Origin: an uncultured Draconibacterium sp.
Lineage (GTDB): Bacteria > Bacteroidota > Bacteroidia > Bacteroidales > Prolixibacteraceae
Direction: 5' to 3'
Length of the DNA: 64,000 nt
Assembly: GCF_963675585.1 (NCBI RefSeq)
Contig: NZ_OY776411.1
Span: forward strand, 811,001-875,000
Part shown: piece after piece, positions 2,440-62,629 of the stretch
Layout: each line of letters begins with the position of its first letter
Position numbering within the stretch: the first letter of the stretch is position 1
Translations under genes and position numbers: made by a program
The notes under the pieces: generated by a model
Databases searched by the model: none
What the model was told of the DNA's origin: nothing
What the model saw: the letters and a program-made list of their open reading frames with translations, nothing else

Positions 2440-2667
2440 ATTCCGGAACAAGCTGACCCCCTTCCAAGGCAGGAAAAATAGGCGTATTTTTTCATGACAT
2501 TCCGGCGGATGCTGACCCCTTTCCGGGAAGAAAGAGGTTAAATTTTGCCCTGATTTGCAAAAAACCGGAGCATACTGACCCCCTGCCTCGGCTTTTTGCC
2601 AACAGAACCGGAGCATGTTGACCCCTTGGGACAGTTTCCGGGCAGAAAAACGGAGCATGCTGACCCC
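2440..2667 (+). repeat. five subterminal IS21 transposase-binding repeats, left end
   Basis: Five copies of a ~20-bp motif of form CCGGAnCATnCTGACCCC at 2440-2460, 2499-2519, 2564-2582, 2607-2625 and 2649-2667, all in the same orientation. Multiple end repeats are typical of IS21 elements and are taken to be IstA binding sites. Confidence 0.8.
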
Positions 2668-2718
2668 TCAGATTTTAGGTTTTGGTTAATTGGTGGTTTT
2701 AACTGCTAAAAAATAGAT

Positions 2719-4302
2719 ATGGCCGGAAAACCTAAAAGAATGAGTCAGGTAAAACAAATATTACAACTGTACAAGCAAGGCTATAAAATAAAGCCTATTG
2801 CGAAGAATTTAAGCATCAGCAAAAACACCGTAAAAAGTTATCTTGAAAAATACCGAAGTTCAAAACTAAGCCTTGATACCTTGCTGAAAATGGAAGACCA
2901 TGATTTGGAAAAAGTCTTTCATCCTGGCAACCCGGCTTATAAGGACGACCGGTTTGACATCCTCACAGATAACCTTGACTACTACACCAAAGAGCTGAAA
3001 CGAGAAGGTGTTACCCGTAAGTTATTGTGGGAAGAATACCGGATGTCCTATCCAGCCGGTTATAGTTTAAGCCAGTTTAGTTTCCATTTATCACAGCACC
3101 TGCTGACCAAAAGGCCATCGTTGGTGTTAAAACACGAGCCGGGGGAAAAACTGTTTGTTGACTTTGCGGGCAAAAAGCTATCGTACATCGACCGCGAAAC
3201 CGGGGAAATAATCGAATGCCAGGTTTTTGTAGCCTGCTTGCCGTACTCCGACTATGGCTTTTGCGTGGCTGTCCCAAGCCAGTCGACCGATGATTTTATA
3301 CATGCCCTTACGCTATGTTTAGAAAGCCTGGGCGGGGCACCCAAAGCTTTGGTGCCGGACAACCTAAAAGCCGCTGTAACAAAAGCCAACCGGTACGAGC
3401 CCACAATAAACCGGGCACTGGAAGATTTTGCCAACCACTATAATATGGCAGTAGTCCCTGCCCGTGCGCGAAAACCGCAGGACAAGGCTTTGGTCGAGAA
3501 CCAGGTGAAACTAATTTACAACCGGGTTTACGCACGAATACGCAACCAGCAATTTTTTTCGCTCGGAGACCTGAATGCTGCCATAACAGAACATACGGCA
3601 AAGCATAACCAAACCCGCATGCAGAAACGGGATTACTGCCGACAGGAACACTTCCTGTCAAATGAAAAACACCTGCTGCAACCCCTGCCCGAAACGGCCT
3701 TTGAAATAAAGTACTACAAAGAATACAAACTGGCACAGAATAACCATATTTACCTGGGACAGGACAAGCATTATTACAGTGCCCCATACCAGCATATCGG
3801 CAAAAAACTTAAAGTCGTTTACACAAGGTCTGTTGTCCGCATTTTTTCCGGTAACGACATGGTTGCCGTCCATAAACGGAGCTTTGTAAAAGGTGGTTAT
3901 ACTACCGACAAAAACCACCTGTGCTCCACCCATCAGCATTACCTGAACCGGAGCCCTGAATACTACCGGAACAAGGCATCTAAACTCTCCGGGGCCCTGG
4001 CCCGCCTGGTTGAGTTGATGTTTACACAAAACCGATACCCGGAACACCTGTACCGTGGGTGCGACGGCTTGTTTAGCCTCTGGCGCAACACTCCCGCGGA
4101 AACCTTTGACAAAGCCTGCCAGATAGCCATCGAACACCAAAACTACAGCTATAGGTTTGTACAAAACATCATAAAAAATAAAATGACAGAAACCGAAGAA
4201 GAAAAACCCGGCAAAGCCCTGCCGGAACACAACAACATAAGGGGCAAAGAATATTACAACAATCAATTACCATTTAAAATTTTAGTAAATGAACAACATT
4301 GA
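2719..4302 (+). CDS. istA: IS21-family transposase IstA
   Basis: 527 residues. An N-terminal helix-turn-helix (residues ~10-45, 'IKPIAKNLSISKNTVKSYL') is followed by an RNase H-fold integrase core: first Asp in 'LFVDFAGKK', second in 'LVPDNLKAAV', Glu in 'QDKALVENQVKLIYNR'. This is the DDE arrangement of IstA, which cuts and joins the element ends. Length and order match full-length members, so it appears intact. The 3' end overlaps istB by 14 bp, the usual translational coupling in this family. Confidence 0.96.
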   Translation: MAGKPKRMSQVKQILQLYKQGYKIKPIAKNLSISKNTVKSYLEKYRSSKLSLDTLLKMEDHDLEKVFHPGNPAYKDDRFDILTDNLDYYTKELKREGVTRKLLWEEYRMSYPAGYSLSQFSFHLSQHLLTKRPSLVLKHEPGEKLFVDFAGKKLSYIDRETGEIIECQVFVACLPYSDYGFCVAVPSQSTDDFIHALTLCLESLGGAPKALVPDNLKAAVTKANRYEPTINRALEDFANHYNMAVVPARARKPQDKALVENQVKLIYNRVYARIRNQQFFSLGDLNAAITEHTAKHNQTRMQKRDYCRQEHFLSNEKHLLQPLPETAFEIKYYKEYKLAQNNHIYLGQDKHYYSAPYQHIGKKLKVVYTRSVVRIFSGNDMVAVHKRSFVKGGYTTDKNHLCSTHQHYLNRSPEYYRNKASKLSGALARLVELMFTQNRYPEHLYRGCDGLFSLWRNTPAETFDKACQIAIEHQNYSYRFVQNIIKNKMTETEEEKPGKALPEHNNIRGKEYYNNQLPFKILVNEQH

Positions 4303-5008
4303 GAACCAATTAGCAGAGCTGCGCTTACATGGAATTAAAAGCAGCTGGAAAGCGTTGACCGAAACAAAACGCATGAGTGAACTAACATTACCCGAAGGCC
4401 TTGAAATACTGCTGCAGGCAGAGATACAGGACCGGGAAAACCGTCGCTTCGACAGGCTCCGGAAAGCGGCAATGTTCCGCTACCAGGCTTCTGTCGAAGA
4501 ATTGAATTATGACGCCTCAAGGGGGCTTGATAAAGGCCTGGTATCGACCCTTGCAACAGGAAGTTATATTGCAAAAGGCGAATCAGTTCTAATAACCGGT
4601 GCCACCGGGTGCGGTAAAAGTTTTGTCAGTTCGGCACTGGGGCACCACGCCTGTGCACAAGGATATAAAGTAATGTATTTTAATGTCCAGAAACTTTTAC
4701 AACGCACTAAAATGGCACGCCTGGAAGGAACAATACACCAGCTTTTGCAGAAAATATCAAAAACTAATTTGCTGATACTTGATGATTTTGGGCTAACGCA
4801 CCTGGAAAAACAACATCAACTTGATTTAATGGAAATTATTGAAGACAGGCATGCCAGGTCAGCAACAATAATTGTAAGCCAACTGCCTGTAGCAAGCTGG
4901 TTTGACGTGATTGGCGAAGCAACAATTGCCGATGCAATTTTAGACCGTTTGGTACATACGTCATACCGGATTGAATTGAAAGGAGAAAGTTTAAGAAGAA
5001 AAATGTAA
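4289..5008 (+). CDS. istB: IS21-family helper ATPase IstB
   Basis: 239 residues, AAA+ ATPase of the IstB/DnaC type. Walker A GATGCGKS at ~residues 104-111 and Walker B 'LLILDDFG' at ~160 are present, followed by a sensor-like segment 'ATIIVSQLPV'. IstB assembles on DNA and stimulates the IstA transposase and target choice. It ends 36 bp before the right-end repeats. Confidence 0.96.
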   Translation: MNNIENQLAELRLHGIKSSWKALTETKRMSELTLPEGLEILLQAEIQDRENRRFDRLRKAAMFRYQASVEELNYDASRGLDKGLVSTLATGSYIAKGESVLITGATGCGKSFVSSALGHHACAQGYKVMYFNVQKLLQRTKMARLEGTIHQLLQKISKTNLLILDDFGLTHLEKQHQLDLMEIIEDRHARSATIIVSQLPVASWFDVIGEATIADAILDRLVHTSYRIELKGESLRRKM

Positions 5009-5048
5009 TTTTGTCATATATCGGTCATTCCGAAACCTAAAATAACAG

Positions 5049-5090
5049 GGGGTCAATATCACCGGAATGAGGGGTCAACATCACCGGAAT
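5049..5090 (-). repeat. two subterminal IS21 repeats, right end
   Basis: GGGGTCAATATCACCGGAAT (5049-5068) and GGGGTCAACATCACCGGAAT (5071-5090) are inverted relative to the five left-end repeats and mark the right end of the element. Confidence 0.8.
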
Positions 5091-5095
5091 ATCAA

Positions 5096-5286
5096 TATCC
5101 TACTGAAACATCCATATTTCTATTTAATGAATATCCCAAATTAAATTTTGGTCCTATTCCATAATTTACTTGCGAATTAAAATTGCCAACTGGGATTACT
5201 GTTGTTGCTTCGGCGTCCACATAAAATTGTGCCACGGTAAGTTTTCCAAGAAAAAGGAGAACTGCTATGGTTAGAGTTTTTTTCAT
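5096..5286 (-). pseudogene. outer-membrane beta-barrel protein, 5' fragment (IS21-disrupted)
   Basis: Starts at an ATG at 5286 with a Sec signal peptide (MKKTLTIAVLLFLGKLTVAQ, cleavage after AQ) and runs about 63 residues ('FYVDAEATTVIPVGNF...NMDVSVGY') before meeting the insertion sequence. The remaining ~115 residues are at 2084-2434. The start is 11 bp after the stop of the TonB-dependent receptor gene, so it was probably co-transcribed with it. Confidence 0.85.
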
Positions 5287-5297
5287 GATTTTTTAGT

Positions 5298-7616
5298 TTA
5301 AAATTTGAAACTGTATGCGAATGAAGGGAAGAATGGGAATAAGCTTTTCTGGTAGAGATATGTGTTCCCTGCAGTTCCGGTTACTCCGGAACTACTCACT
5401 GTATTTATTGTTTCTCTTTCGAAATAGTAGTAGTAAGGATTTTTTCGATTATAAACATTAAAAACACTGAAAGTCCATGAGCTTTCTCCCCAAGACGTTT
5501 TGTAGCTGTAATTAACTGCTAAATCTAACCTGTGGAAATCGCGCATTTTAAATGAATTTATTTTATTGTAGGCATAAACTTCGCCAGTTCCAGTATCATA
5601 TCTTTCGGTAGGTAAAGTGGTAGGATAGCCCGAACCGTAACTCCAGTTACCTGAAATTGTAATATGCTCATTTAGTTTATGTATTACTGCAATACTAATG
5701 TCCAGCAGGCGGTCGTATTTGAATGAAAACGTTTCTCCATTATTCAATTCTGTGAATTTTCTATTTGCGTTTGAAACAGTTCCTCCAATCCAACCCGTTG
5801 TTTTTCCGGTTAACTTCTGAATAAATAATTCTACACCTTTCGATATCCCATCACCATCTGTTTCAATTGTTTTTGTCCATTCATCCAAATGACCAATTAA
5901 TGACTCTCCTGGTCTAAATGCAACAAGATTGTTCATCTCCTTATGGTATCCTTCAATGCTTACCTGATATTGTTCATTCTTAAAAGATTTATTTAAACCC
6001 AAAGAATGTTGAATTGAATTTTGAGGTTTCACGTTTTCGGTGGAAGGCATCCAATAATCGGTTGGCATGCCTACGCCCGAGTAGGATAACAAATGAACAT
6101 ACTGATTCATTTCTGAATAGGAATATTTTAATGAAAGATTATTTGTAATAATTAGATTAAAAAGTAGTCGGGGCTCGAACGAAAGATAATTTTGATTATT
6201 AATTTGATAGGTTGAAAACCGACCACCTAAATTTGCTCCAAAATGTTTTGTTTTAATATCATTTTCGATATAAAATGCGGTTTCAATGGCATTCTCTTCT
6301 GAGTTGTAAAAAGAGTTACCTTCATCATTATTATTTATCAAAACGAAATATTTTTCGGTATTGGGAATAAAAGTATGAAAGATAACAGAAGAACCGAACC
6401 GAATATTCCAGGAAGGATTAATTACCCAATTAAAATCCGACGCAATACTAATGTCCTTAATTTTAGATTCAACTTTACTTTCGATGACAGTTGACATTGA
6501 GTCTGCTGTCGAGCTATAATTAAAATTATTATTGTTCTTGTAGTTAGAGATGCCCAAGACATTACGACAGAATATGTTTTCAGAGAAAATATGGTTCCAT
6601 TTTAATGATAAAACAGTATTTCCCCAGTTGGTTTCTCGTTTATCTTTTTGTTTATAATCATCGTAGTATATTTTATTCTTTACTCCAACTTTATCATTAC
6701 CTAAATAAGTACTGAAAGATAATTTGTCTTTGGCTGAGAAAGAATAATCTATTTTAGCATTTAAATCATAAAATCCATAATCGAGGTCGGCACCAAAAAT
6801 CTTAAAAACAGGGAGCATATTCTTTCTAATCGAAACCAAAAAAGAAGCTTTTTCTTTTCTTATTGGGCCTTCAAGTAGAAGCTTTGAAGATAGTAACCCA
6901 ATAGCACCTTGACCTGAAAATTCTTTCTTATTCCCATTTTTCATTTTTATGTCAAGAACTGATGATAGTCGGCTTCCATATCGGGCAGGAAAACCTCCTT
7001 TGATTAGTTTTGTATCGCTTAATGCATCAGTATTAAATATTGATATAAAACCACCGAAATGCGCAACATAATACAACGGAATACCATCTAATAGTATTAG
7101 GTTCTGGTCAGGGCTACCTCCCCTTACGTATAGATTAGACTGACCTTCTCCTCCTGATTGTACTCCTGGGGTTAATTGCAGAATCTTTATAATATCTGTT
7201 TCTCCAAAGAAATTGGGCAAACTTTCAATCTGTTTGGTCTGTAATTTAACTACTCCAGTTTGGTTTTCTCTGATTTCGTTTCGATATTGATTCTTTAGGA
7301 TTTTCACTTCTCCTAGATCCACACCCGGATGAAGATGAATTGTAACAGATTTTTTTGCACTAAATGTTATTTCCTTTGTTTGATATCCAACAAAGGATAT
7401 GATCATGTAAGTAGAATTTTGTTTTGGTATTGTAATACTGTAAAAACCATATTCATTCGTAGTTGTTCCAAAATTTCCATTTGCACTAATAATAGTAGCT
7501 CCCAGTAAGGGCTCCAGGGTAATTTCATCAAGGATGTATCCCCTAAAAGTAATTTTCTCTTGCGCAAACAACAGTGCCGGAATCATAAAGAGTAGTGGTA
7601 GCAGGTAATTTTTCAT
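5298..7616 (-). CDS. TonB-dependent receptor with CarboxypepD_reg domain (copy a)
   Basis: 772 residues, outer membrane. A Sec signal peptide (1-19) is followed by a CarboxypepD_reg-like Ig domain (~22-105), a plug domain (~120-235, with 'LYVRGGSPDQNLILLDG' and 'GGFPARYGSRLSSVLDI'), and a 22-strand barrel region ending in a terminal Phe ('SFAYSFKF'). It lacks the extra features of SusC. It overlaps the upstream DUF4249 gene by 4 bp (ATGA). The receptor at 11105-13456 is a diverged paralogue with the same domain order and very similar plug motifs. The substrate is unknown, and even the direction of transport (uptake or export) is not shown by the sequence. Confidence 0.93.
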   Translation of the reverse strand: MKNYLLPLLFMIPALLFAQEKITFRGYILDEITLEPLLGATIISANGNFGTTTNEYGFYSITIPKQNSTYMIISFVGYQTKEITFSAKKSVTIHLHPGVDLGEVKILKNQYRNEIRENQTGVVKLQTKQIESLPNFFGETDIIKILQLTPGVQSGGEGQSNLYVRGGSPDQNLILLDGIPLYYVAHFGGFISIFNTDALSDTKLIKGGFPARYGSRLSSVLDIKMKNGNKKEFSGQGAIGLLSSKLLLEGPIRKEKASFLVSIRKNMLPVFKIFGADLDYGFYDLNAKIDYSFSAKDKLSFSTYLGNDKVGVKNKIYYDDYKQKDKRETNWGNTVLSLKWNHIFSENIFCRNVLGISNYKNNNNFNYSSTADSMSTVIESKVESKIKDISIASDFNWVINPSWNIRFGSSVIFHTFIPNTEKYFVLINNNDEGNSFYNSEENAIETAFYIENDIKTKHFGANLGGRFSTYQINNQNYLSFEPRLLFNLIITNNLSLKYSYSEMNQYVHLLSYSGVGMPTDYWMPSTENVKPQNSIQHSLGLNKSFKNEQYQVSIEGYHKEMNNLVAFRPGESLIGHLDEWTKTIETDGDGISKGVELFIQKLTGKTTGWIGGTVSNANRKFTELNNGETFSFKYDRLLDISIAVIHKLNEHITISGNWSYGSGYPTTLPTERYDTGTGEVYAYNKINSFKMRDFHRLDLAVNYSYKTSWGESSWTFSVFNVYNRKNPYYYYFERETINTVSSSGVTGTAGNTYLYQKSLFPFFPSFAYSFKF

Positions 7617-59725: not shown

Positions 59726-59764
59726 ATTAGTGATACACTCACTTTGAGTGAGCGTATCACTAAT
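59726..59764. repeat. REP palindrome 1 (after HAD gene and folK end)
   Basis: ATTAGTGATAC-a-CTCACT-TTG-AGTGAG-c-GTATCACTAAT: a 39-bp palindrome with one internal mismatch, between convergent stops at 59720 and 59771. It may double as a bidirectional terminator. Same core as the REPs at 60134, 60548 and 60793. Confidence 0.9.
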
Positions 59765-59770
59765 ATCTTC

Positions 59771-60775
59771 CTATTCATCGCTAAGCTCTTGCACACTGTT
59801 TCGTAAAAAATCGCGGGTGTAGTAATCTTCATCCACAATTTCACCGTTCCAAACTGCAATATCCAGATCAATACAGCGTGGTCCGAACTTTGGTGTTTTT
59901 CTGTTGCGCCCCATTTGGTCTTCGATCGATTTTAACAGTACAGTAAGCTCTTCAATAGTAAGTTCCGTTCGAATTTTAACGGCACCATTTGTAAAATCGG
60001 CCTGATTTTTAATACCAATTGGTTTTGTTTTTACCATGGAAGAAACCCGCACAACCTCCACTTTGGTTTTTAAAATTTCAAACATTTGGGCAATGTTTGT
60101 TTCCGCATTGATGTTTGAACCAATTCCGATAATAACAAAATTGATAGTCTCACTCTGAGTGAGGCTATCAATTTTGTTTGCATCAGGATTGAGTAATCCT
60201 TCTGCTAAAATCATTTTGTAGTCGATTAATTTGCCATTCCTGAGTCCTTTATAATCCCTGCATGAAGAATATTCCCAGTTCTCAGCATTCTTTACTAAAC
60301 CTGAATAAACAGGATTTTCATGAACATATTTCACACATGTTGCCAGATAACCGTTTCCTTCCAGGTTATTTATTTGTGTTCCAAAAGCGGTGTTCCAATA
60401 GGCCGGAGAAATCTCAATTTCATCAATTAAAAGTTTGGCTTTTGTATGTGTCTGGAAAAGAGAACCTGTACTATTCTCCTGCTTTTGAATTGCCCGGGTA
60501 TAAGATCGCAAAAGAATTCCGATGGACTGATTAATCGTTCTTAGCCTAGTGATACTCTCACTTTGAGTGAGAGTGTCACTGTTCTCGCGGTGTACAAAAA
60601 CCACCCAATGAAAGTGGTTTGGCATAAGACACCACGCGATAACAGACACAAAAGGAGAAAGGTGTTTTTTCATCTTCTCGAGAAAAAACATATAGTTTTC
60701 GTCTTTGAAAAATATCTTCTGAGAATTATTTCCCCGGTTGTAGATATGATAGAAATTTCCGGCCTGTAAATCCAT
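59771..60775 (-). CDS. folK: fusion of REP-associated tyrosine transposase (RAYT) and HPPK (FolK)
   Basis: 334 residues, one open frame. Residues 1-~200 are a complete RAYT/Y1 transposase: 'GNFYHIYNRGNNSQKIFF', HUH-type 'MPNHFHWVV' (H54, H56), probable catalytic Tyr in 'LLRSYTRAIQKQE' (Y92), 'GSLFQTHTKAKLL', 'YVHENPVYSGLV', 'NWEYSSCRDY'. Residues 213-334 are 6-hydroxymethyl-7,8-dihydropterin pyrophosphokinase: 'FVIIGIGSNINAETN', 'IEDQMGRNRKTPKFGPRCIDLDIAVWNG' (HPPK signature GPRCIDLDI). The junction (DSLTQSETI, 203-211) is encoded by a REP palindrome. No stop and no ATG separates the halves, so HPPK depends on the fusion unless a rare start is used. It follows folB by 45 bp. Confidence 0.9.
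   Translation of the reverse strand: MDLQAGNFYHIYNRGNNSQKIFFKDENYMFFLEKMKKHLSPFVSVIAWCLMPNHFHWVVFVHRENSDTLTQSESITRLRTINQSIGILLRSYTRAIQKQENSTGSLFQTHTKAKLLIDEIEISPAYWNTAFGTQINNLEGNGYLATCVKYVHENPVYSGLVKNAENWEYSSCRDYKGLRNGKLIDYKMILAEGLLNPDANKIDSLTQSETINFVIIGIGSNINAETNIAQMFEILKTKVEVVRVSSMVKTKPIGIKNQADFTNGAVKIRTELTIEELTVLLKSIEDQMGRNRKTPKFGPRCIDLDIAVWNGEIVDEDYYTRDFLRNSVQELSDE
60134..60178. repeat. REP palindrome 2 at RAYT-HPPK junction
   Basis: AACAAAATTGATAG-t-CTCACT-CTG-AGTGAG-g-CTATCAATTTTGTT: 45 bp, 14-bp perfect outer arms. It encodes residues around DSLTQSETI at the fusion junction. The core equals the other REPs but the outer arms differ. Confidence 0.92.
60548..60580. repeat. REP palindrome 3 inside RAYT coding sequence
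   Basis: AGTGATACT-CTCACT-TTG-AGTGAG-AGTGTCACT, 33 bp, one arm mismatch. In frame it encodes part of 'SDTLTQSESIT' (about residues 66-76) between the HUH motif and the catalytic-Tyr helix. Confidence 0.9.
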
Positions 60776-60792
60776 CTGGTTAAAAGTTTATA

Positions 60793-60825
60793 AGTGATAC
60801 GCTCACTTTAAGTGAGGGTATCACT
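60793..60825. repeat. REP palindrome 4 at folB stop / upstream of RAYT
   Basis: AGTGATAC-g-CTCACT-TTA-AGTGAG-g-GTATCACT. The folB stop codon (TGA, 60823-60821) lies in its right arm, and the RAYT start is 17 bp beyond its left arm. Confidence 0.9.
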
Positions 60826-61180
60826 CATTTTTACTGGCCTCCATCTCAAGCGAAACCGATTCGGCAAAACGTAAAGCATGAGGTTTATCTACCTCTACTT
60901 TTGCCCATTTTACCTGTTCATCTTCCATGATTAAATCGAGGATATTTTTTGTAAGTACCTCCAGTAATTTAAACCGTCCTTCCTGAACCAGTGCTATAAT
61001 TTGTTTTGTAATCCGCTTGTAATCAAAAATATCAAGTGGCTCATCGGCTTCCAGGGCCTTATTCGGAATACTTGTTTCAATTTCAAGATTAATAATTACA
61101 TCTTGTTTATTGACCAACTCTTCCGGGTTAAAACCAATGTATGTTCTGATCAGTAAATTTTTTACGCGTATTCGTGCCAT
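60821..61180 (-). CDS. folB: dihydroneopterin aldolase
   Basis: 119 residues, DHNA/FolB family: 'VKNLLIRTYIGFNPEELVNKQDVIINLEI' (catalytic Glu/Tyr region), 'DYKRITKQIIALVQ', 'FKLLEVLTKNILDLI', and 'AKVEVDKPHALRFAESVSLEM' with the catalytic Lys. It converts 7,8-dihydroneopterin to 6-hydroxymethyldihydropterin, the substrate of HPPK encoded next. The last codons fall in a REP palindrome. FolX-type epimerase activity is a minor alternative. Confidence 0.9.
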   Translation of the reverse strand: MARIRVKNLLIRTYIGFNPEELVNKQDVIINLEIETSIPNKALEADEPLDIFDYKRITKQIIALVQEGRFKLLEVLTKNILDLIMEDEQVKWAKVEVDKPHALRFAESVSLEMEASKNE

Positions 61181-61183
61181 AAT

Positions 61184-61912
61184 TTATACGTTTATTCCTA
61201 AGTTTTCACCACCATCGGCAAACAAGAGTTGCCCGGTTAAATATTCGTTGTTTAAAATATAATCGATGCTTTTCAGAATTGGATCCAATCCGCCGGGACG
61301 CTTCATCGGAATGCCTTTTGCGAGATCCTGCAGGTAGTTTTCATCTTCGTGTTCAGGAGCCAGAGTAACACCGGGCGCAATGGCATTTACCCGAATTTCA
61401 GGAGCAAATTCCAAGGCCGCCATTTGGGTTAAATCCCAAAGTCCTTTTTTTGAAAGAGAATAAGCTGCAAAATTCGATTTATTGGATGAAATCCGGGTGT
61501 CAACCAGATTTATTATGTTTCCCGATTTACACAAGTTCGCAAAATCGCGCATTAAAAAAAAGGGAGCTTTCAGGTTTACATCCAGCTGACTGTTAAATAA
61601 ATCAAGCGATGTAGCATTTATATATGCTTTGTTGAAAACCGATGCATTGTTCACCAGCAAATCAAAAGGTCCGAAATCGGCTACTAATTTCGGGATCAGC
61701 TCCAGCACTTCATCTATATTCGACAAATCGGCTTTCACCATGTGAAAATGCTGTTCGGGGAATTTTGTAGAAAGCTCAGCAAGCAACAATTCTGCAGCTG
61801 TGGCCGATGTATTGTAGTGTACAAAAATGTTCCAGCCGCCCTTTGCCAGGTGTTCGGCAATGGCTTTTCCAATTCGTTTTGATGAGCCGCTTACAAGTGC
61901 TGTATGTTCCAT
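61184..61912 (-). CDS. short-chain dehydrogenase, pteridine reductase/FolM-like
   Basis: 242 residues, SDR fold. Cofactor motif 'ALVSGSSKRIGKAIAEHL' has the SxxKRxG form of pteridine reductases (NADPH preference); 'LVNNASVF', 'YSLSKKGLWDLTQMAALEFAP', 'VNAIAPGV', 'DGGENLGINV'. The position 3 bp before folB in a pterin operon supports dihydropteridine/dihydrofolate reductase activity like FolM or PTR1. Confidence 0.85.
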   Translation of the reverse strand: MEHTALVSGSSKRIGKAIAEHLAKGGWNIFVHYNTSATAAELLLAELSTKFPEQHFHMVKADLSNIDEVLELIPKLVADFGPFDLLVNNASVFNKAYINATSLDLFNSQLDVNLKAPFFLMRDFANLCKSGNIINLVDTRISSNKSNFAAYSLSKKGLWDLTQMAALEFAPEIRVNAIAPGVTLAPEHEDENYLQDLAKGIPMKRPGGLDPILKSIDYILNNEYLTGQLLFADGGENLGINV

Positions 61913-61969
61913 TCTGAAAAGTTAGCTAATATTTTGCATTTATAACGCGCGTACTTCACAGAAGTTCAT

Positions 61970-61999
61970 AAAAAAAGGCCTGGTAAACCAGACCTTTTG
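61970..61999 (-). terminator. intrinsic terminator after ribE
   Basis: On the minus strand AAAGGTCTGGT and ACCAGGCCTTT form a stem (one mismatch) followed by a run of T, 19 bp after the ribE stop. Confidence 0.85.
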
Positions 62000-62017
62000 A
62001 ATATTGTTTTTTGAATT

Positions 62018-62629
62018 CTATCGATTGAATGAATTCAGTTTACTCAAATATTTTCCGATAATATCGAACTCGAGGTTGATTACCGAACCTTCTTTAAAAG
62101 TATGGAAATTGGTTACTTCCTGGGTAAAAGGAATAATGGCTACCTGAAACGAATTGTCTTTTGAGTTGACAACTGTAAGACTAACTCCGTTAACGGTTAC
62201 TGAACCTTTTTCAACCGTCATGTATCCTTTTTGTGCAGCTTCCAGATCAAAATCGTACTCAAAAGTATAGTACCAGCTACCATCGGCTTCCTCCACTTTT
62301 GTGCAGGTGGCGGTTTGGTCAACATGGCCTTGCACAATGTGTCCGTCCAAACGACCGTTCATCATCATACTACGCTCAAGATTTACTTTCGAACCCACTT
62401 CGAGCAAGCCTAAATTCGATTTAATAAGTGTTTCCTTAATTGCGGTAACCTTGTATAATTTTTCGGCTTTGTCCACCCAAACCACAGTTAAACACACGCC
62501 ATTGTGCGATAAACTCTGGTCAACCTTTAATTCGTCGGCAAACGAACAAGTTAAAGTAAAATGTACATTCTCCTGATCTTTTTCAACAGCTACAACTGTT
62601 CCGTATTCTTCAACTATTCCTGAAAACAT
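62018..62629 (-). CDS. ribE: riboflavin synthase alpha chain
   Basis: 203 residues with the two lumazine-binding repeats: 'MFSGIVEEYGTV', 'SHNGVCLTVV', 'KVNLERSM', then 'GHIVQGHVDQTATC', 'VTVNGVSLTVV', 'NLEFDIIGKYL'. It dismutates two 6,7-dimethyl-8-ribityllumazine to riboflavin. Has its own terminator. No FMN riboswitch seen upstream. Confidence 0.95.
   Translation of the reverse strand: MFSGIVEEYGTVVAVEKDQENVHFTLTCSFADELKVDQSLSHNGVCLTVVWVDKAEKLYKVTAIKETLIKSNLGLLEVGSKVNLERSMMMNGRLDGHIVQGHVDQTATCTKVEEADGSWYYTFEYDFDLEAAQKGYMTVEKGSVTVNGVSLTVVNSKDNSFQVAIIPFTQEVTNFHTFKEGSVINLEFDIIGKYLSKLNSFNR

Follow-up and report, generated by a model that had tools for sequence, protein, structure and literature searches.

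A REP-associated tyrosine transposase fused in frame to a second folK gene in Draconibacterium and its relatives

In the 64,000-nucleotide stretch of an uncultured Draconibacterium sp. genome analysed here (hereafter the window), a REP-associated tyrosine transposase (RAYT) and an HPPK (FolK-type) domain share one open reading frame. This fused frame is real, it has been retained repeatedly among relatives, and it was created by a REP-flanked RAYT at a folK start codon. We propose that the RAYT would have inserted at the start-stop overlap (ATGA) of folB and folK in a paralogous pterin cluster, with its right REP abutting folK codon 2. In-frame read-through of that REP would leave the RAYT without its own stop and folK without its own start, and the ribosome would then make a single RAYT-REP-HPPK chain from the RAYT start. 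We give this reading, in which HPPK is most likely made from the RAYT start as one protein, a probability of about two in three.

The fused frame and its REP junctions

The RAYT-HPPK frame occupies positions 59771..60775 on the (-) strand and encodes 334 residues followed by a stop. A first-pass annotation of the window had described a single open frame of 334 codons and this was confirmed: no stop separates the two domains and the native HPPK start is absent. The RAYT domain (residues 1-196; 60188..60775, (-) strand) matched the REP_Tyr_transpos model NF047646 over residues 5-170 with an E-value of 2.6e-12 and 46.8 bits, for a curated cut-off of 80. The same model matched all eight fused proteins that were compared (E <= 0.001), and the Y1_Tnp model matched six of the eight with a best E-value of 0.0041. 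These RAYT scores lie below the curated cut-offs, which we count against our reading. The HFH motif and the tyrosine noticed at first pass were both found conserved, H54 and H56 of the NHFH motif and Y92 being invariant in the eight aligned fusions; by analogy with the Y1 family, Y92 would be the catalytic nucleophile.

The HPPK domain (residues 212-334; 59774..60142, (-) strand) was recognised in a profile search by PF01288 (84.9 bits, cut-off 25.7, residues 215-331) and by TIGR01498 folK (87.2 bits, cut-off 54.1), as well as by comparison with HPPK chains of the PDB. Its C-terminus is short. The TIGR01498 alignment ends at position 104 of 128. PDB chains of 158-162 residues are aligned as far as residues 111-115, beyond which the window protein has 15 more residues, and the domain is thus about 30 residues shorter than these chains; both comparisons show that the full-length C-terminal region is absent. 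Unfused relatives of this HPPK are mostly ORFs of similar length. The earlier description of the domain as complete goes too far. R290, R292, R300, D303 and D305 are invariant in the eight aligned fusions. Pyrophosphokinase activity of HPPK within the fusion is predicted.

The fused gene is preceded, on the same strand, by a FolB/FolX-like gene (60821..61180, (-) strand; PF02152, 90.4 bits), a FolM-like short-chain (pteridine) reductase gene identified by profile matches (61184..61912, (-) strand) and a riboflavin synthase gene. The best-scoring NCBIfam model for the FolB-like protein was NF008418, dihydroneopterin triphosphate 2'-epimerase, with 147.7 bits for a cut-off of 152. The whole cluster (59771-62629, (-) strand), composed of ribE, the FolM-like and FolX-like genes and the short HPPK paralogue, is retained in relatives. 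The genome was checked for another folK, and a full-length one was found: in the window's own assembly (6.03 Mb, 4 contigs) a second HPPK lies at C1:60081-60467, in an ORF of 173 aa, and scores 120.1 bits compared to 86.3 for the window copy. A second folB lies at C4:3485985-3486320. The window set is thus a paralogous pterin cluster. The locus had been described as the folK slot of the folate operon; folK does follow folB- and FolM-like genes, but it is a paralogue and the FolB protein scores best as FolX-type. The idea that the fusion holds the single, essential folK of the cell is refuted by these second copies, which leaves the proposed link between the transposase and an essential function unproven. 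Since this HPPK is a second copy, any benefit that it brings would concern a pterin side pathway rather than the cell's sole folate route.

Four REP-like palindromes are found at the locus. The left one (60793..60825) lies between the FolB/FolX-like gene and the RAYT and contains the stop codon of that gene; another is in frame within the RAYT, in the loop that follows NHFH (60548..60580); a third, with extended arms (60134..60178), has a core (60143-60169) which constitutes the in-frame linker between RAYT and HPPK; and the last lies directly 3' of the HPPK stop (59726..59764). Palindromes therefore flank the window RAYT on both sides, and RAYTs flanked by inverted REPs have been described (PMC2817692). 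The window REP occurs at 22 places in its own assembly with at most two mismatches, and a reversed control sequence at none. Among the 11 palindromes inspected elsewhere in this assembly, ten lie outside ORFs of at least 100 aa; the eleventh, L009, overlaps with ORFs of both strands. The GTAG of REP feet, looked for on either strand, adjoined 1 of the 15 palindromes inspected in this assembly; GTAG is described as the tag of one large REP superfamily, not of all REPs (PMC3733652). Copies of the window-type REP with at most one mismatch numbered 12 in the window's assembly, 15, 6 and 11 in three other genomes with an occupied site (G061, G069 and G037) and 0 in a fourth (G132). Twelve genomes with an unoccupied site had between 0 and 21 copies, the maximum in G041. 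These REPs are thus not tied to the RAYT of this site, which we count against our reading, and may be served by other RAYTs in those genomes.

The junctions were compared with unoccupied sites. An ATGA overlap joins folB and folK in 71 of the 100 unoccupied family loci; the other 29 have near overlaps or short gaps and are counted against our reading. In the window, AAAAATGA is the end of the flank that precedes the left REP, and ATTTTGTT is the start of the flank that follows the linker REP. Joined without the insert, AAAAATGA directly followed by ATTTTGTTATT, the flanks give ATGAATTTTGTTATT, that is a native-like MNFVI start with an ATGA overlap. This plain fit of the left junction was seen only in the window and has drifted at the other occupied loci, another point that weighs against us. 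In five fusions (L024, L027, L033, L042 and L046) folK codon 2 directly follows the linker and the initial ATG has become ATC or ATA. The earlier proposals that a RAYT with its REPs had inserted between folB and folK and had removed the native folK start are both borne out by these comparisons. At the other end of the linker, most other RAYTs compared have a GKLIN..EFGL-like tail and a stop no more than about 15 codons away from it, while RAYTs of this site read GKLID and their frame continues into the REP.

A palindrome forms the linker in eight of the nine fusions known at this site, none being found in the L046 linker, and six of the eight full-length fusions also carry an in-frame palindrome within the RAYT, where none was found in L048 and L067; these absences weigh against our reading. 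Measured from LID to IGSN, the nine linkers are 34, 27, 27, 27, 36, 32, 56, 54 and 32 codons long, which implies several changes in length, with the frame kept in all. The REP type varies between species but tends to match within a locus (mean similarity of 0.79 for 24 within-locus pairs compared to 0.70 for 252 between-locus pairs, permutation p 0.005, with hand-chosen segments and with the mis-centred left REP of L033, at 5/13 pairs, counted nonetheless).

Occurrence and history of the occupied site

The HPPK part matched 130 of 140 family genomes at E <= 0.001, canonical copies included, and the paralogue itself (HPPK2) was found in 110 of the 140, giving a set of 110 loci (E <= 7e-30) that were fetched with their flanks. 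To find RAYTs, the window RAYT was used as tblastn query (E 1e-4 or 1e-3) on the upstream flank, about 1.5-2 kb long unless cut short by the contig end. In ten of the 110 loci a RAYT separates folB from folK or, at a contig end, immediately precedes folK; two of them (L046 and L087) are cut by contig ends, L046 inside the RAYT. One open frame runs through both domains at nine of these ten loci. The exception, L087 (G056), whose RAYT ends at its own stop and is separated by a spacer of 140 nt from an HPPK gene with its ATGAAT start intact, is counted against our reading. Eight of the nine fusions belong to one genus (g1) and one to another (g22), the latter in an isolate genome, that of Tangfeifania diversioriginum DSM 27063 (G132). 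A RAYT of G058, in g1, shows full identity to one of Draconibacterium sp. CSMAG_289. The survey of relatives called for by the first-pass annotation thus yielded the same fused architecture in eight other genomes, and a sequencing slip that hides a break between the domains is ruled out by this recurrence: with the open frame present in the assemblies of nine species, one of them a named isolate, the chance that it is an artefact of assembly or sequencing is negligible.

In 393 genomes of the order, the paralogue was detected in 11 at E <= 1e-20; six of these lie outside the family, and no RAYT match was found in the stretch inspected in these six. Two genomes of another family (G381 and G177) have long HPPK frames, which were considered as fusions and rejected: these frames have C-terminal extensions and no RAYT. 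An extension of about 150 residues at the C-terminus is seen in HPPK2 relatives of another family (L297 and L298). Long RAYT frames in G072, G084, G086 and G054 were likewise discarded as host fusions: inspected by eye, they correspond to N-terminal read-in or loop repeats, with no host domain visible. The RAYTs L252 (G072) and L253 (G084) carry several REP-like repeats in frame, in a loop or an N-terminal extension.

The ten RAYTs of the site form one clade relative to 23 other RAYTs (support 96/88, 97% of bootstrap trees), in a tree where the coverage of the columns is 48% for L046 and 26% for L087. The eight full-length ones are again recovered as one clade (100/100) when the tree is widened to 57 rows. 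Four RAYTs are absent from both trees: L158 and L162 for their in-frame stops, L019 because it is the gene already represented by L021, and L023 for its weak match. The wider tree also omits L020, L022, L046 and L087 and includes 25 of the 78 other named loci. Their hosts are scattered. On a tree of FolM, FolB and HPPK that covers 54 of 113 loci and nine of the ten occupied ones (L067 fell outside the selection, and L046 and L087 fill 25% of the columns), occupation of the site requires 8 changes for 9 rows, where shuffled labels give a mean of 8.5. We count this scatter against our reading; together with the single RAYT clade, it indicates that the site was gained or lost repeatedly.

Two histories, each compatible with either mode of HPPK synthesis discussed below, could have produced this pattern. 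Repeated insertion by one RAYT lineage, or transfer of occupied sites, as opposed to one old insertion followed by losses, has in our estimate slightly less than an even chance. Besides the scattered hosts, it is favoured by the locus L033 (G037), whose identity to L027 is 66% in the RAYT compared to 96% in FolB, 91% in FolM and 80% in HPPK. L033 still has the linker REP and HPPK of its sister loci, which suggests that a more distant RAYT module has replaced the original one behind the linker; the position of the L033 RAYT in the trees is poorly supported. Against it stand the linker REP DNA, identical in L027, L033 and L042 though near relatives are unoccupied, and signs that loss does occur. 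L054 (G108) has a C-terminal RAYT remnant, recognised by eye and not by tblastn, and a REP before an HPPK with another start, as expected for a decayed fusion, and L034 and L059 have REP-like scars before HPPK. Empty, fused, decayed and scarred states of the site thus all exist.

Translation of the fused frame

Selection on the fusion was estimated from dN/dS ratios (Nei-Gojobori estimates, with dS saturated or infinite in several pairs). These were 0.12 for RAYT and 0.11 for HPPK in the pair L048/L067, and 0.10 for both in L027/L042; the highest usable values were 0.26 for RAYT (L033/L042) and 0.23 for HPPK (L046/L056). Both domains are under purifying selection. The linker gave 0.28-0.41 (L048/L067, L027/L042, L027/L033 and L033/L042; 20-47 codons), a weaker constraint than on the domains. 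These values bear on the view that the fusion is neutral debris, HPPK2 being dispensable and its fusion tolerated as a complete folK exists elsewhere. The second full-length folK and second folB of the window's assembly speak for it, but we hold it to be improbable: it fits poorly with the purifying selection on both domains, with the invariance of the RAYT HUH and tyrosine residues and of the five HPPK arginines and aspartates in all eight diverged fusions, and with the presence of HPPK2 in most genomes of the family.

A more serious alternative is separate translation: HPPK would start within the frame, in the tail of the RAYT or in the REP, and the fused frame would be a by-product of REPs free of stops in that frame. 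It had been stated that there is no ATG for HPPK alone. This is correct near the HPPK start, but an in-frame ATG, the sole ATG, GTG or TTG within 60 codons before IGSN, lies 29 codons upstream in the tail of the window RAYT, and a separately made HPPK would be conceivable in this species too. Five of the nine fusions have an in-frame start at most 16 codons from IGSN (ATG in L052, L048 and L067, GTG in L056 and L042; in T. diversioriginum an ATG 8 codons before IGSN), so that separate initiation would be possible there, and the three loci that retain REP remnants and no RAYT (L034, L054 and L059) have ATGs near the HPPK domain. In the remaining fusions (L024, L027, L033 and L046), however, the nearest ATG, GTG or TTG stands 21-32 codons before IGSN, and the constancy of the frame across linkers of varying length argues against independent initiation, even though the linker is less constrained than the domains. 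On balance we regard separate translation as unlikely, with a chance that is far from negligible, and a single RAYT-REP-HPPK polypeptide of about 38 kDa as the most likely product predicted from these sequences.

Synthesis as one fusion would also help the RAYT to persist, since its inexact loss would remove the HPPK start. The first-pass annotation had gone further and held that the RAYT was kept because HPPK is now made as a fusion. The nine open frames out of ten and the purifying selection agree with this proposal, whereas its appeal to an essential function does not survive the finding of the second folK.

A second RAYT lineage and known systems

A fusion-alignment search found 80 named loci. 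In four of them the frame continues past the RAYT for over 100 residues. Two are RAYT-HPPK fusions (L172 and L173) and two are RAYT-helicase fusions (L192 and L193), each in a Flavobacteriaceae MAG. The L192 frame (2501-5581, (+) strand) encodes PIF1, HRDC and HTH_40 domains, and the L193 frame runs from 2471 to 3889 on the (+) strand. A third RAYT-helicase frame, L268 (G1146), belongs to the family f173, which was surveyed in a different collection from that of L192 and L193; among the 90 helicase matches listed in 397 genomes of this family, a frame of fused length occurs only in G1146 (1029, the others being 805-870). In L192 and L268 the REP found within the RAYT also makes up the linker, with displacement of the native helicase start, while in L193 an ATG directly before NPELELAL is still in frame. 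In L200, the nearest unfused RAYT, the frame closes after EYIDYTLKC, a short way ahead of a REP of this type, where L192 has EYVDYKN and reads straight into the REP. In the 57-row tree, L200 and the helicase-fused RAYTs form a group (97/87) that is distant from the RAYTs of the folK site, so that the folK and helicase captures belong to two RAYT lineages. In our reading, a similar takeover of a start by read-through happened to a PIF1-like helicase gene in this other lineage.

From these two captures in two lineages we tentatively draw a broader proposal, which we think has a lesser chance of being right than wrong. RAYTs and REPs of Bacteroidota would recurrently capture host genes by entering at a start codon, which their in-frame REP replaces, so that the host protein exists only as a C-terminal extension of the transposase and guards it against loss; the REP would then be constrained both as DNA substrate and as linker. 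RAYTs persist as solitary and mostly immobile genes, which calls for an explanation. A RAYT frame that carries a host enzyme offers a concrete and testable reason for retention, because loss of the RAYT would cost the enzyme unless excision were exact. By serving as coding linker, a REP would also let a mobile element give rise to a protein fusion, and several steps of this path coexist among the genomes compared: the empty site, the fusion, the remnant and the scar. Neither a RAYT-HPPK nor a RAYT-helicase fusion was found in the literature searched, which comprised few subscription papers.

Among known systems, the window RAYT is a putative member of TnpA_REP subclass 2.4, described as abundant in Bacteroidetes and as having REPs inserted within tnpA_REP genes (PMC6006769, Quentin et al. 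2018): assigned by resemblance, it is likewise an HUH-Tyr protein with REPs, one of them inside its gene. It differs by its fusion to a host gene, for which that description of the subclass has no counterpart; in the same study, long proteins were deemed gene fusions or annotation errors and discarded. The HPPK part resembles known HPPK (FolK) by its IGSN motif, its PRxxDLDI region and its conserved arginine and aspartate residues, and is unlike it in its truncated C-terminus, its fusion to a transposase and the presence of a full-length folK in the same genome. REPs within ORFs and the palindromic elements of Rickettsia are known precedents (PMC3733652) for a palindrome in frame within a coding gene, as seen in the window; compared with what is described there, the palindrome here is itself the junction between a RAYT and a host enzyme.
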